The position numbers and the translations under genes are program-made. Shown here piece by piece: positions 10,629-49,145 of a stretch of 64,000 bases of DNA. The stretch's first letter is position 1. Every line of letters begins with the position of its first letter. The notes under the pieces are model-generated. The model was not told the DNA's origin. It worked only from the letters and a program-made list of their open reading frames with translations, and searched no databases. The DNA is taken from positions 1-64,000 of the forward strand of contig QCNT01000003.1 of NCBI GenBank assembly GCA_003213135.1. Direction: 5' to 3'. Source of the DNA: Pelagibacteraceae bacterium AG-426-I15 (GTDB lineage: Bacteria; Pseudomonadota; Alphaproteobacteria; Pelagibacterales; Pelagibacteraceae).

Positions 10629-11000
10629 ATGACAAATTTTAGCGATGTAAAAAAATTTATGGAAACTTTTGGCCAAGAAGTTAAGAAAAAAGCAGAGTTT
10701 CCATCTGATAAAATAGTGAAACTTAGATATGATTTAATTAAAGAAGAGCTAGACGAATTTGAACAAGCAATTAAAGAAAAAAATCTAAAAGAAGTTGCAG
10801 ATTCGCTTACTGATATTTTATATGTTACTTATGGAGCCGGCCATGCCTTTGGAATAGATCTAGACAAATGTTTTAATGAGGTACAAAGATCAAATATGAG
10901 CAAACTCGGAGATAACGGTAAACCAATTTATAATGAGCAAGGAAAAGTTATGAAGGGTCCCAAATACTTTGAGCCTAATCTTAAAAAGTTTGTTGAATAA
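10629..11000 (+). CDS. MazG-like nucleotide pyrophosphohydrolase
   Basis: Small all-alpha NTP pyrophosphohydrolase (MazG/HisE/dUTPase-like superfamily), 123 aa. The magnesium-binding pattern is visible as [11 protein letters not shown] (EExxE, about residue 40) followed by [13 protein letters not shown] (ExxD, about residue 60). The C-terminus [14 protein letters not shown]...GPKYFEPNL resembles the DR2231-like subfamily that hydrolyses non-canonical or deoxynucleotides. The exact substrate is not readable. The start ATG at 10629 follows GGAGATTTT. Immediately after its stop lies an odd tRNA-like 3' end (separate entry), so this gene marks the left edge of the accessory patch. Confidence 0.8.
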
Positions 11001-12022: not shown

Positions 12023-12698
12023 ATGTCAAGGATAACTGTCATTATTCTCATTTTTTTCTGTACTTTAATTGTTTTCAATAAAAAGATTGTTTCTTATTAT
12101 TATATAAATAAATTTTCTAATTGGGTAGAAAGACCTGTTAAAATTGATAAGCTAAATTTTAACTATTCTGGCCATGTCAAAATAGAAGGCATTAAGATCT
12201 TAAATAATAGCGAAAATTATTATAAAAACATATTTAGAGCTGAAAAAATCGACATTCATTTTGACATGGACTCAATTTTTTCAGACTTAATTTTAATAAA
12301 AAGTTTATACATTTATAACCCTGAATTTTTTTTAGTTGTAAAAATAAAAAAAGATAACCAAAATATTAATTATAAAAAAGAAGTTTACGAAGATAATATT
12401 GGTCTTGCAAAAAAAAATTAATGAAAATCCACCAGACAAAATTTGGCCAAAAAAAAATAGAGATATTAATTTTTTGGTAAAAAAATCAATTTTATCTGGA
12501 GGAATAGGTAATATTAAGGTTTCTAAAATCTCTAATCCATCAAAAGTTAAGCTGTCAAAGATGAAATTTTCTTCTTTTGGAAATGATAAAAAACATCAAC
12601 ATTATAAAGACGTTTTAAAGTTTATTCTTTATGATTTATATGCCAGAACAGAAGAAATTGGATTAAAAAAGGTATTAAAGGAAATTTACAAATTTTAA
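12023..12698 (+). pseudogene. Short AsmA/TamB-like membrane-anchored protein, frame broken once
   Basis: Two consecutive open frames give one protein of about 224 aa when one A is removed from the 9-A run 12409-12417; the joint reads GLAKKINENPPDKIWPKKN. There is an N-terminal membrane anchor (about residues 4-21, ITVIILIFFCTLIVFNKK). The pattern that follows (VERPVKIDKLNFNYSGHVKIEGIKILNN ... IFRAEKIDIHFDMDS) resembles the start of AsmA/TamB-type proteins, but it is far shorter than those families. The stop is 1 bp before the next ATG, so it was probably cotranscribed with the lyase-like gene. It could be a sequence error rather than a true pseudogene. Confidence 0.5.
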
Positions 12699-12699
12699 A

Positions 12700-13599
12700 A
12701 TGAAAAAACTATCTCTATACACCTTTCTTTTTTTGATGTTTTCTCTTTTTACTTCGCATTCGTTTGCAGTATCTTTTGAAAAAAATTGTAAGGTTCCCAA
12801 AGGTTCAATAAAAATAATAAAGATTGATGGAGAAAAATATAATCAATTTACTTTGAAAGATAAGGACAAAGGAGGTTGTTCTTCAGATAAAAAGTCAAGA
12901 CATGGCTCTCCTTATTGGGAAAGGGCGGAGTATGCACAAGTAAATACATTATCTAAAAAAAAAAATCATGAGATAAATTTTAAGGTTAAAATTTTAAAGG
13001 GATTTTTAGGTCAAAGAGAAACTTTTTTTCAAATTCATAATTACAACGAAAATTTTATGTCAGTTTATCCCTCATTAATGTTTAAATTCCATCCCAAAAA
13101 AACCAATGAATGTACTGGGTGTAGTAACTATTCTACTAGAACTATAAATTGTTTTGATAAAGATGGTCAGCCAAAAAAACAATGCTGGATAGAGGGTAGG
13201 GGAACTGAAGAGGGTAAATGGATAGAAGGAGAAAGTTATTCTAAATCACTCTCATTCTTTCAAATAGATTATTTAAGAGATTTTAAATGTTTAAAAAAAA
13301 AAGGGAAGTATTGCGCAAAATCAAAAGGTGGTCATGAAGAGAAAAAATTCCAAACAATTACTATAAATGATTTTTTAAAAAAATGGATAAATTTTAAAAT
13401 TGTAATTCCAAAAATAATAAATGAGAAGGGTTTAGTTACAATATTTATTAATGACAAAATAGTTTTTGATAAAGTTGTACATTTTCCAAAAAGGGGAACG
13501 CCAAGAATTAAATATGGTATTTACAGACCTGGGAATTTACAAGGAAACACAACATCTCAAATACTTTATTCAAAAATTAATGTTAATTCTAAAAAATAA
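12700..13599 (+). CDS. Exported protein resembling heparin-lyase-type polysaccharide lyases
   Basis: 299 aa with a clear Sec signal peptide (cleavage after about residue 24, SHSFA). The mature part is beta-rich. It contains RHGSPYWERAEY, QRETFFQIHNYN, a Cys-rich patch (ECTGCSNYST ... NCFDKDGQPKKQCW) and a late ILYSKINVN strand. This layout resembles the jelly-roll family PF14099 (heparin lyase I-like), but I cannot confirm catalytic residues, so lyase activity is a tentative reading. Its stop codon overlaps the left copy of the tmRNA-end repeat by two bases (13598-13599). Confidence 0.45.
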   Translation: MKKLSLYTFLFLMFSLFTSHSFAVSFEKNCKVPKGSIKIIKIDGEKYNQFTLKDKDKGGCSSDKKSRHGSPYWERAEYAQVNTLSKKKNHEINFKVKILKGFLGQRETFFQIHNYNENFMSVYPSLMFKFHPKKTNECTGCSNYSTRTINCFDKDGQPKKQCWIEGRGTEEGKWIEGESYSKSLSFFQIDYLRDFKCLKKKGKYCAKSKGGHEEKKFQTITINDFLKKWINFKIVIPKIINEKGLVTIFINDKIVFDKVVHFPKRGTPRIKYGIYRPGNLQGNTTSQILYSKINVNSKK

Positions 13600-13623
13600 G
13601 GGGCGTTCTGTTGCCAGGTGCCC
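13598..13623 (+). repeat. Left att-like copy of the tmRNA 3' end (26 bp)
   Basis: Identical over 26 bp to 14267-14292 and in the same orientation. It starts AAGGGGCGTT and ends CCAGGTGCCC. Beyond the identity, the next roughly 18 bp are only about half matching, as expected for a displaced end of a related but different tmRNA allele. It begins inside the stop codon of the upstream lyase-like gene. Confidence 0.8.
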
Positions 13624-13695
13624 TGAACCTCATTTCGTTAATCCTTGTTATATAATAATTATTTTACAACCTAAAGCCCAAAACTGGTTCTTCAC

Positions 13696-13724
13696 TGCGT
13701 CGGTATTGCGTCAGGAATTGCGTC
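13696..13724 (+). repeat. Three TGCGTC direct repeats (left arm)
   Basis: TGCGTC occurs at 13696, 13707 and 13719, spaced 11 and 12 bp, about one DNA helical turn. The first copy sits in TCACTGCGTC, a ten-base string that recurs at 14202 next to the right repeat. This fits protein binding on one DNA face, for example integrase arm sites; the function is inferred. Confidence 0.55.
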
Positions 13725-13741
13725 AGGATAGGATGATCTCT

Positions 13742-14182
13742 ATGAAAAAAACTGCAACTGAAAGACTTAAAAGAAGAGCTGACATATTTGGTGAAATAAA
13801 ATTATATATAATATTAATTATAATAGGCGCAACTTTAGGGGGTTTATATGCATCACCTTGGCCAACATATTTTAAAATTATAATTTTTGGTTTTTTATTT
13901 TTATTATTTCAAATTCTTAATGAACTTTCTAGAATTGCAAATTTAAATGACAAATCAATAGAAACTTCAATTCTTACATTTTTTCAATTAAATCTTATGG
14001 GAAAAAAACAGGGAATTAAAGAAAACCAAGCAGATTTGAAAAGGGCTGAACTTCAAGAGTCGGTTGCCCAGGATTTGATAATAAAAAGAATGTTATTTGG
14101 TGATAATGAATCTTTATTTATAATTTTTGCATTATTTCTGCTTGGAATCTCTGCAACCATAACGGTATTTTTAATTACATAA
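13742..14182 (+). CDS. Small membrane protein of unknown function inside the element
   Basis: 146 aa from the ATG at 13742 (an in-frame ATG at 13733 is the alternative). The charged N-terminus MKKTATERLKRRADIFGEIK is followed by two adjacent membrane segments (about residues 20-38 and 44-62), a charged central region (NLMGKKQGIKENQADLKRAELQESVAQD, which may be a short coiled coil) and a C-terminal membrane segment (about 122-144). I do not recognise a family. It is the only gene between the two tmRNA-end repeats, so it may be cargo of the element. Confidence 0.55.
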   Translation: MKKTATERLKRRADIFGEIKLYIILIIIGATLGGLYASPWPTYFKIIIFGFLFLLFQILNELSRIANLNDKSIETSILTFFQLNLMGKKQGIKENQADLKRAELQESVAQDLIIKRMLFGDNESLFIIFALFLLGISATITVFLIT

Positions 14183-14205
14183 TTAATGAAAAAACTTTTT
14201 CTCAC

Positions 14206-14222
14206 TGCGTCCACAGTGCGTC
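14206..14222 (+). repeat. Two TGCGTC direct repeats (right arm)
   Basis: TGCGTC at 14206 and 14217, spaced 11 bp, located about 45-60 bp inside the right copy of the 26-bp repeat. They have the same orientation as the left cluster. The two clusters are the only places in this patch where I see the motif in phased series. Confidence 0.5.
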
Positions 14223-14265
14223 ACAAAATTTTTAATTGTTGATATTAAATAAGAATTAGAGATTT

Positions 14266-14526
14266 AAAGGGGCGTTCTGTTGCCAGGTGCCCCAAAACCC
14301 CGTTTACTTAATTAACAAGTTAATTAAGCAGCAAGTGCAAATTTATTATTTGCATTTATAATTAGCCCGTTACGTCGGAACCATCTCGAACGAAAGAATA
14401 GCCTTTAGACACTCGTCGATTCTGATTCACCCCCATAAGTTGTAAATGGTGGAGGTGGTGGGTACTGCCCCCACGTCCGCAATGTTTATTACGAAACTCG
14501 TTTATCGTCATAGTTGGAAAACCAAC
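14266..14526 (-). ncRNA. ssrA: Two-piece (circularly permuted) transfer-messenger RNA
   Basis: Read on the minus strand, the acceptor piece comes first. It has a T-arm (GTGGG, loop GGCAGTA, CCCAC), the acceptor strand CACCTCC, discriminator A and an encoded CCA ending at 14447. Twelve bases later the coding piece starts at 14434 with GGGGGTG, which pairs with CACCTCC and places G3-U70 in the stem, the alanine identity element. The tag frame follows as Ala-Asn-Asn-Lys-Phe-Ala-Leu-Ala-Ala-stop, then a 9-bp hairpin holding the stop codon, then a GGGGC/GCCCC pseudoknot-like end near 14269. The 5' end at about 14526 is inferred from a promoter. This layout is known from Alphaproteobacteria. It rescues stalled ribosomes. 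Confidence 0.9.
14267..14292 (+). repeat. Right att-like copy (26 bp) at the tmRNA 3' end
   Basis: This is the functional 3' end of the coding piece of ssrA and is identical to 13598-13623. Integration into the 3' end of tmRNA genes with regeneration of that end is a well-known strategy of tyrosine-recombinase elements. Confidence 0.8.
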
Positions 14527-14530
14527 AGAT

Positions 14531-14560
14531 ATAATATAAAATTAAAAATTAAAGATTCAA
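14531..14560 (-). promoter_or_regulatory. Candidate promoter of ssrA
   Basis: On the minus strand, TTGAAT (14560-14555) and TATTAT (14536-14531) are separated by 18 bp. This would start the transcript at about 14526, at the small hairpin GTTGG-TTTT-CCAAC (14526-14513). It lies in the short gap before the divergent thyX start. AT-richness makes chance matches likely. Confidence 0.4.
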
Positions 14561-14573
14561 TATATATTTCAAA

Positions 14574-15522
14574 ATGAAGCTTACAAAAGAACAAAAACAA
14601 GAAATTTTAGACCAACAATCTCAAAAAAATACTACCAAGAGAGTTACTTCTCCAGAATTGGAAAAAATTCTTTATGAAGCAATGCCTGTGCTAGACCATG
14701 GTTTTGTTAGGGTTGTTGATTATATGGGAGATGATACATCCATAGTTCAATCAGCAAGAGTCTCTTACGGAAAAGGAACTAAAAAAAGTTTCTACAGATA
14801 GTGGTTTGATAAAATACTTAATGAGGCACAGACACAGCACTCCTTTTGAAATGTGTGAAATAAAATATCATATTAAACTACCAATATTTATAGCAAGACA
14901 ATGGATTAGACATAGAACAGCAAATGTAAATGAATATTCGGCAAGATACTCTATAATGGACAAAGAGTTTTATGTCCCTTCAAAAGAAAATTTAGCTGCA
15001 CAATCAACCAATAATAGGCAAGGCAGAGGAGAACTAATTAACGGTAAACAAGCTGATAATATTTTAAAGATTTTAAAAGAAGATGCTGAAAGAAACTATG
15101 AACATTACGAGGAAATGTTAAATGAAAAATACGATGGAAGTATTATTGACGAAAAGAAAAAGGGACTTGCTCGAGAATTAGCAAGAATGAATCTTACATT
15201 AAACTCGTATACACAGTGGTACTGGAAAACAGATTTATTAAATTTGTTGAACTTTTTATCTTTAAGAGCAGATAGTCATGCACAATATGAAATTAGAGAA
15301 TATGCAGATGTAATGATGAGCACAGTTAAAAAATGGGTCCCAATAACTTATGATGCGTTTGTTGATTACAGAGTAGGTGGCATGGAACTTTCTGCTAAAG
15401 GAAAAATAGTGATACAAAAAATGATTAAAGGCGAAAAGTGCGACATCGAATCCTCAGGACTTTCGAAAAGAGAATGGAACGAATTAATGGACTCGTTTGG
15501 TTTTAAACAACACCTTGCATAA
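14574..15522 (+). CDS. thyX: FAD-dependent thymidylate synthase ThyX, frame interrupted by one extra A
   Basis: Makes dTMP from dUMP using FAD, NADPH and methylene-folate. The N-terminal part (14574-14798, ending [12 protein letters not shown]) and the main part (from about 14788) lie in different frames. Removing one A from the 7-A run 14781-14787 joins them as [26 protein letters not shown], giving about 315 aa. The ThyX signature is intact: [16 protein letters not shown], fitting the RHR...S.R pattern, and a C-terminal [12 protein letters not shown] region. Both halves are otherwise well preserved, so the gene is probably functional in the organism. The 3' end overlaps convergent mrp by 20 bp. 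Confidence 0.88.
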
Positions 15523-49063: not shown

Positions 49064-49067
49064 TTTT

Positions 49068-49126
49068 CTCTCCTTTTTTAGTACTTCGACAAATAGTCAG
49101 GCGTACAATACAGTTCAAATGCCCAG
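49068..49126 (-). promoter_or_regulatory. SAM-V-like riboswitch overlapping the metY ribosome-binding site
   Basis: On the minus strand the leader contains CTGGGCATTTGAACTG, TTGTACGCC, a GAC-TATTT-GTC mini-hairpin, then GTACTAAAAAAGGAG. GGGC/GCC forms P1. The loop GTAC pairs with the downstream GTAC, closing a pseudoknot that buries AAAAGGAG, the Shine-Dalgarno site. This layout matches the SAM-V class described from marine bacteria. SAM binding should block translation. Confidence 0.82.
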
Positions 49127-49145
49127 TTTTAATTTGATTAATTTC

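Follow-up and report, generated by a model that had tools for sequence, protein, structure and literature searches.

A cargo-only cassette at the ssrA end of a SAR11 genome, probably moved in trans by satellite integrases

The 3' end of the tmRNA gene (ssrA) of Pelagibacteraceae bacterium AG-426-I15 carries a 669-bp unit which, judging from its sequence and that of its relatives, is most probably a non-autonomous, cargo-only integrative cassette that would be moved in trans by ssrA-specific satellite integrases. The unit lies in a window of 64,000 nucleotides, the whole stretch of DNA analysed here, which is part of a 977-kb draft SAR11 genome (G000). The initial annotation had considered it a possible recombinase-free satellite. 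This description was essentially right, as the unit has the attachment anatomy of the ssrA integrase satellites without their integrase; it is, however, one of a clade-wide set of tandem arrays and not an isolated mini-element. Since it keeps the attachment sites of the satellites but has no recombinase, it probably borrows one from them.

Anatomy of the cassette in the window

The boundaries of the cassette are formed by the 26-bp sequence AAGGGGCGTTCTGTTGCCAGGTGCCC, of which exact copies occur at 13598-13623 and 14267-14292 in one orientation and with a spacing of 669 bp, just as first reported. The chance expectation of an exact match to this 26-mer in the window is 2e-13, and no further core was found in the window with up to 4 mismatches allowed. 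As had been claimed, the tmRNA gene ends in the right copy: the Rfam model alpha_tmRNA (RF01849) matches 14564-14266 on the minus strand with an E-value of 1.4e-64, and ARAGORN places a permuted tmRNA at 14233-14542 with the tag ANNKFALAA. The repeat is the 3' hairpin of the permuted two-piece alphaproteobacterial tmRNA gene. The features of the locus are as follows.

14266-14564, minus strand: ssrA, permuted two-piece alphaproteobacterial tmRNA gene, its 3' end being the integration site (Rfam RF01849, ARAGORN tmRNA*)
14267-14292, minus strand: att core, ssrA-proximal junction, the final 26 bp of ssrA (exact repeat; reconstitutes the intact ssrA end)
14202-14223, minus strand: start arm, two phased repeats TGACGCA..GGACGCA with a period of 11, 46 bp from the core
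13742-14182, plus strand: cargo gene, 146-aa predicted membrane protein, antisense to ssrA (ORF; in-frame alternative start at 13733)
13692-13725, minus strand: end arm, three phased repeats TGACGCA, TGACGCA and GACGCA with 12/11-bp spacing
13624-13680, minus strand: conserved AT-rich end module GGTTGTAAAATAATTATTATATAACAAGGATTAACGAAATGAGGTT, tmRNA-like beside the core (core-proximal part common to 13 elements in 12 loci)
13598-13623, minus strand: att core, distal junction (exact repeat)
13598-14292, no strand: whole cassette including both cores, unit length 669 bp
10629-11000, plus strand: MazG/PRA-PH-like gene (PF01503), conserved anchor of the variable ssrA-fumC interval, kept in 13 other loci of the genus

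Between the two cores, ORF, Pfam and PHROG analyses agree with the earlier picture of one small membrane-protein gene accompanied by phased repeats, with no recombinase. The phased words, of TGCGTC type, stand near both cassette ends (13692-13725 and 14202-14223), and the membrane-protein gene is the single ORF, encoding 146-149 aa depending on the start (13742 or 13733, to 14182, plus strand). Its product belongs to no PHROG family, has only sub-threshold Pfam matches (e.g. 2TM) and matched none of the phage records. The tmRNA-like stretch beyond the left core is also real, with 85% identity over 46 bp, but its reading as a displaced older ssrA allele of this genome is ruled out, as the same end module, TAACGAAATGAGGTT, terminates 13 elements in 12 loci. 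This module may hold a promoter for the cargo, although a promoter search called no sigma-70-like site in it.

Several further features were noted around the cassette. A polysaccharide-lyase-like gene (PF14099) at 12700-13599 has a stop codon overlapping the distal core, and a core-bounded unit in another genome (G075) carries a gene with a signal peptide nearly identical to that of this gene. Further beyond the distal core, at 12023-12698, lie AsmA-like fragments, the first of which shares 73% identity with cargo enclosed by cores in G384 (L174); by this resemblance, older cassettes may have lain there. On the other side of ssrA, thyX (14574-15522) is interrupted, giving the ORFs 14574-14801 and 14806-15522, where relatives have one ORF of 315 aa, which reflects either a frameshift or a sequencing error. 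Additionally, a SAM-V riboswitch (RF01826) was found on the minus strand at 49067-49133.

Tandem arrays behind ssrA across SAR11

A comparison of the ssrA neighbourhoods of relatives, which the initial annotation had proposed, yielded relatives with a single core, others whose cargo differs or that have more than one unit, and larger integrase elements at the same site. A tmRNA-gene search of 31 genomes of the same genus revealed extra cores behind ssrA in most of those with a long enough contig. Among 20 ssrA loci of the genus, 14 show between two and eight cores behind ssrA, all on one strand, mostly spaced 0.3-3 kb apart and separated by differing genes; four (G001, G002, G024, G025) are single-core and two are cut by contig ends. 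The cargo varies between genomes inside conserved neighbours, namely thyX and ssrA on one side and the MazG-like gene and fumC on the other. Family-wide, a query consisting of core plus end arm matches 336 of 397 genomes, a lone match often being merely ssrA itself. The genomes are mostly drafts and are mutually related, and the counts and test statistics given here are not fully independent. One two-gene cargo is present in five genomes, where it takes the first, second or third place in the array behind different start arms; such varying positions and neighbours suggest recent movement.

The core is also found away from ssrA. The initial annotation had held that matches of the 26 bp to many non-ssrA loci would count against its interpretation, and this applies weakly, as tRNA-Thr, pnp and rnhA loci in other genera carry the core. 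Since cassettes are inserted at some of these loci as well, the evidence points to secondary insertion sites rather than chance matches. In G135, a core stands at the 3' end of tRNA-Thr (junction GGGCACCA/GACAACAGAACGTCCC), and 16 relatives have no core at that place; from this case, strand exchange is suggested to fall within GGGCACC, which is common to ssrA and tRNA-Thr. Other cores follow rnhA (G153), pnp (G066) and small ORFs (G075, G109).

The internal layout of the units was examined in a set of 67 core-to-core units shorter than 4 kb. Read from ssrA, an arm-bearing unit consists of the core, 46 or 57 bp, two GC-rich words 11 bp, or one helical turn, apart, cargo on the opposite strand and an end arm of two or three words with 12- and 11-bp spacing that ends about 75 bp before the next core; the end-arm repeats of many cassettes lie about 75-105 bp ahead of that core. 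An AT-rich end module, tmRNA-like next to the core, closes these units. The arm words differ among units (GACGCA, GGACTCA, GGGCACA, GATCACA, GGTCACA, TGGCACA, ACTCGTC, GTCGGC, CACGTA) and frequently agree between the two ends of one unit. Phased repeats occupy the start position in 29 of the 67 units and the end position in 26, compared with 1.5% and 2.0% of random windows, respectively. A stricter count of exact arms gave binomial values of 3e-33 (start) and 1e-19 (end) for genomes that are related and not fully independent. An 18-mer of the start arm of the window cassette occurs 11 times in 196 genomes, each time at +46 or +57 of a core; the two offsets differ by one repeat period.

Orientation and length of the units vary with the arms. 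All 38 units with either arm have antisense cargo, whereas the 29 arm-less units comprise 16 sense, 11 antisense and 2 without an ORF (Fisher 2e-8 against the arm-bearing units), and the median length is 501 bp for arm-less and 1,438 bp for arm-bearing units. The cargo itself is diverse. Sense ORFs resembling DUF805 (named from sequence) recur as arm-less 'ORF plus core' units (L048, L053, L172, L173), and a 135-bp core-to-core unit in G030 (L087, 365-500) has an 18-codon membrane-peptide ORF as its sole content, a similar ORF preceding a core in G004. Moreover, many cargo proteins in L040-L059 share the near-identical signal peptide MKKLLAIVVLGLLWSGNA and differ in their mature parts. No recombinase was recognised among the array cargo proteins, whose sequences were judged by eye.

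Integrase-bearing satellites and the proposed movement

Elements with an integrase of their own occupy the same site in other SAR11 genomes. In the single-cell genome AG-333-N19 (L271), a 4,525-bp element with a tyrosine integrase (PF00589) extends core-to-core after ssrA, and in a second one, AG-435-B08 (L273), a 5,436-bp element in the same place encodes a 338-aa PF00589 integrase together with a small terminase and an AAA_25 protein. In G223, a gene for a 330-aa integrase immediately follows the ssrA core and start arm, and G529 has an integrase at the same place; relative to the G223 protein, the AG-333-N19 integrase is 95% identical and that of AG-435-B08 51%. The insertions of the satellites at ssrA are precise: beyond the right core of L271 and L273 lies a flank with tRNA-Leu, and in three related genomes, G241, G333 and G068, this flank directly adjoins the single ssrA core.

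These empty and occupied sites bear on the reading that the cores are merely copies of a terminator-like hairpin, duplicated by chance or by homologous recombination with no site-specific system. The core is indeed a GC hairpin (GGGGC..GCCCC) and at times follows sense ORFs, but no terminator-like site was called at it, and the exact core, the fixed arm distances, the empty sites and the integrase satellites would all be left unexplained. This reading is strongly disfavoured by the empty/occupied comparison and is hardly credible.

A link between a satellite and a cassette is provided by the arms. The satellite L273 and the 1,396-bp cargo-only cassette L175 (G161) both carry the 19-nt start arm ACTCGTCCTGTACTCGTCA exactly at +57 from the core, and TGACGAGTCGATTTT is common to their end arms; no other unit among the 67 shares 10 nt or more with this start arm. 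The simplest reading of the shared arms is that one integrase type would serve both. A comparable pair adjoins tRNA-Met in G004 (L082), where a 5.67-kb satellite encodes an integrase and an AAA_25 protein besides small genes and is followed directly by a 1,389-bp unit that lacks an integrase; three identical 51-bp att copies bound the two, and TGACACA arms are found in both.

Such adjacency of a cargo-only unit and an integrase satellite that have att and arms in common would also fit cassettes that are decayed satellites, which have lost the integrase by deletion and remain as inert attL/attR fossil scars at ssrA. Certain cores and arms are degenerate, and the fragment in the distal flank of the window that resembles core-bounded G384 cargo has no further core, as expected of such decay. 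Many cassettes, on the other hand, combine near-perfect arms and core with antisense cargo in the standard layout, their arm words often match between both unit ends, and identical cargo at different array positions with different neighbours suggests recent movement. Decay is regarded as an unlikely origin of the cassettes as a whole.

The reading as mobile cassettes implies a helper, and searches were made for that of the window cassette. No helper with GACGCA arms was found, all 11 arm matches in the 196 genomes adjoining array cores. IMG/VR searched with the arm and end-module patterns gave no matches and no exact GACGCA arm, and a search there for relatives of the ssrA integrase was likewise negative; a search with the core matched phage-encoded permuted tmRNAs plus two contigs (L177, L178). 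Some IMG/VR marine phage contigs (L032-L039) carry their own permuted tmRNA of alphaproteobacterial type near apparent ribonucleotide reductase genes. In the genomes of the genus, no integrase beyond a resident one was found except in the tRNA-Met satellite of G004; at least one divergent SAR11 integrase escapes the Pfam model, so such absence is not strict. Extra integrases first seen in 11 genomes adjoin tRNA genes and not ssrA, and weaker matches revealed the one of G223 at ssrA. One such divergent enzyme, a 495-aa tyrosine integrase below the Pfam cut-off, belongs to a tRNA-Thr satellite in G164 (L212, 8363-9851); homologues exist in 5 of 397 genomes, and the core is present at none of those loci. 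As a separate observation, the tRNA-Thr units L209, L210 and L211 are bounded by copies of the 3' half of that gene and have GTGGTGTC phased repeats, no recognised integrase, and cargo including a likely type I restriction system.

The resident enzyme, a single-copy SAR11 tyrosine recombinase of 304-326 aa, might itself move the cassettes in the manner of an integron integrase. Most Pelagibacteraceae genomes have exactly one such protein and usually no other PF00589 protein, cores are common outside ssrA, arm-less core-only units exist, and a search of 31 genomes of the genus found no serine recombinase (PF00239). Yet it resembles XerD/XerA/Cre and passes no NCBIfam cut-off, and at this size a domain for arm binding would hardly fit, so the arms, which are phased and come in several sequences, would find no explanation in it. 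Satellites with the same core, moreover, bring their own integrase with matching arms. As the general mover of the cassettes it is quite improbable. Arm-dependent integrases leave the 29 arm-less units of the 67 unexplained, and the resident recombinase is a possible candidate actor on these.

For the window cassette, movement by satellite integrases would proceed as follows. The cassette would insert site-specifically at the 3' end of ssrA, one core rebuilding the tmRNA gene and the other marking the far junction. Its circular form would hold a single core with an arm region of phased 7-bp repeats on either side, corresponding to a lambda-type attP. The enzyme would be a tyrosine integrase that has an arm-binding domain and comes from an ssrA-specific SAR11 satellite sharing the cell; by contacting both the arms and the core, it would insert or excise the cassette in trans by cut and paste. 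Repeated insertions at ssrA could then build up the tandem arrays. We infer a route between cells and expression of the cargo along with these steps.

Known systems and significance

Several known systems share parts of this anatomy, the closest kinds being cis-mobilizable elements (CIMEs) and phage satellites. CIMEs are att-flanked elements without an integrase that lie in tandem with integrase-bearing elements, and they are defined together with conjugative elements (ICEs, IMEs). The window cassette resembles them in having att cores at both ends and no integrase or transfer genes; it differs in that no conjugation gene was recognised here and its autonomous relatives look like phage satellites. 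Integrase-bearing relatives at the same site are present but satellite-like. With phage satellites (PICI, PICMI, VEIME-type) the likeness lies in the autonomous ssrA and tRNA relatives, which span 4.5-5.7 kb and carry an integrase (L271, L273, L082), in part AAA_25 (L273, L082) and in L273 a small terminase, whereas the window cassette has none of the integrase, replication or packaging-hijack genes.

The nearest published case is that of the Dehalococcoides ssrA islands, which stand in tandem downstream of ssrA between direct repeats of its 3' end, some without an integration module, and the latter were proposed as possible cis-mobilizable elements (PMC3146451). Tandem units bounded by ssrA 3' repeats are found in SAR11 as well, while a serine recombinase module is not: the Dehalococcoides islands have serine recombinases (DsiB/DsiA), a 20-bp repeat and reductive dehalogenase genes (PMC3146451), whereas in SAR11 the integrases are of the tyrosine type, the arms carry phased repeats and a unit can be as short as a few hundred bp. 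Tycheposons of Prochlorococcus and Methylophilaceae, elements of 4-200 kb with a tyrosine recombinase (PMC10872708), are likewise cargo elements at tRNA genes of streamlined marine bacteria, but the SAR11 cassettes range from sub-kilobase size to 3 kb and have no recombinase, the window unit being 669 bp long and located at ssrA. CALINs are integron cassette arrays that lack an integrase of their own and rely on one supplied in trans (PMC11389934); they and the SAR11 arrays alike consist of small genes with a recombination site between them and no integrase close by. The SAR11 site, however, is the tmRNA end and not attC, many units are armed, and the cargo is mostly antisense to the ssrA end of the array; the spacer is an ssrA 3' end with arms of tyrosine-integrase type, and the resident recombinase scores far below the integron-integrase cut-off. 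No description of such cassettes in SAR11 was found in the open-access literature.

A broader and tentative extension, to which we give somewhat less than even chances, is an integron-like gene-capture platform of SAR11 at ssrA, with a parallel form at the tRNA-Met and tRNA-Thr genes. Its cassettes, sub-kilobase in size, devoid of an integrase and equipped with exchangeable arm specificities, would form a shared pool for passing satellite integrases to load and shuffle. The arm-less sense 'ORF plus core' units would make up a second class, transcribed from the direction of ssrA much as the cassettes of an integron are from Pc.

Few cells in the ocean are as abundant as those of SAR11 bacteria, whose genomes are streamlined and whose strains nevertheless differ in gene content. 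A base-precise mechanism of the kind proposed could generate part of their flexible genome through the gain and swap of genes. Moreover, the likely enzyme family is named, and matched pairs of helper and cassette are testable in vitro. The concept of hitchhiking elements would thereby come to include units with one gene and a length of a few hundred base pairs.
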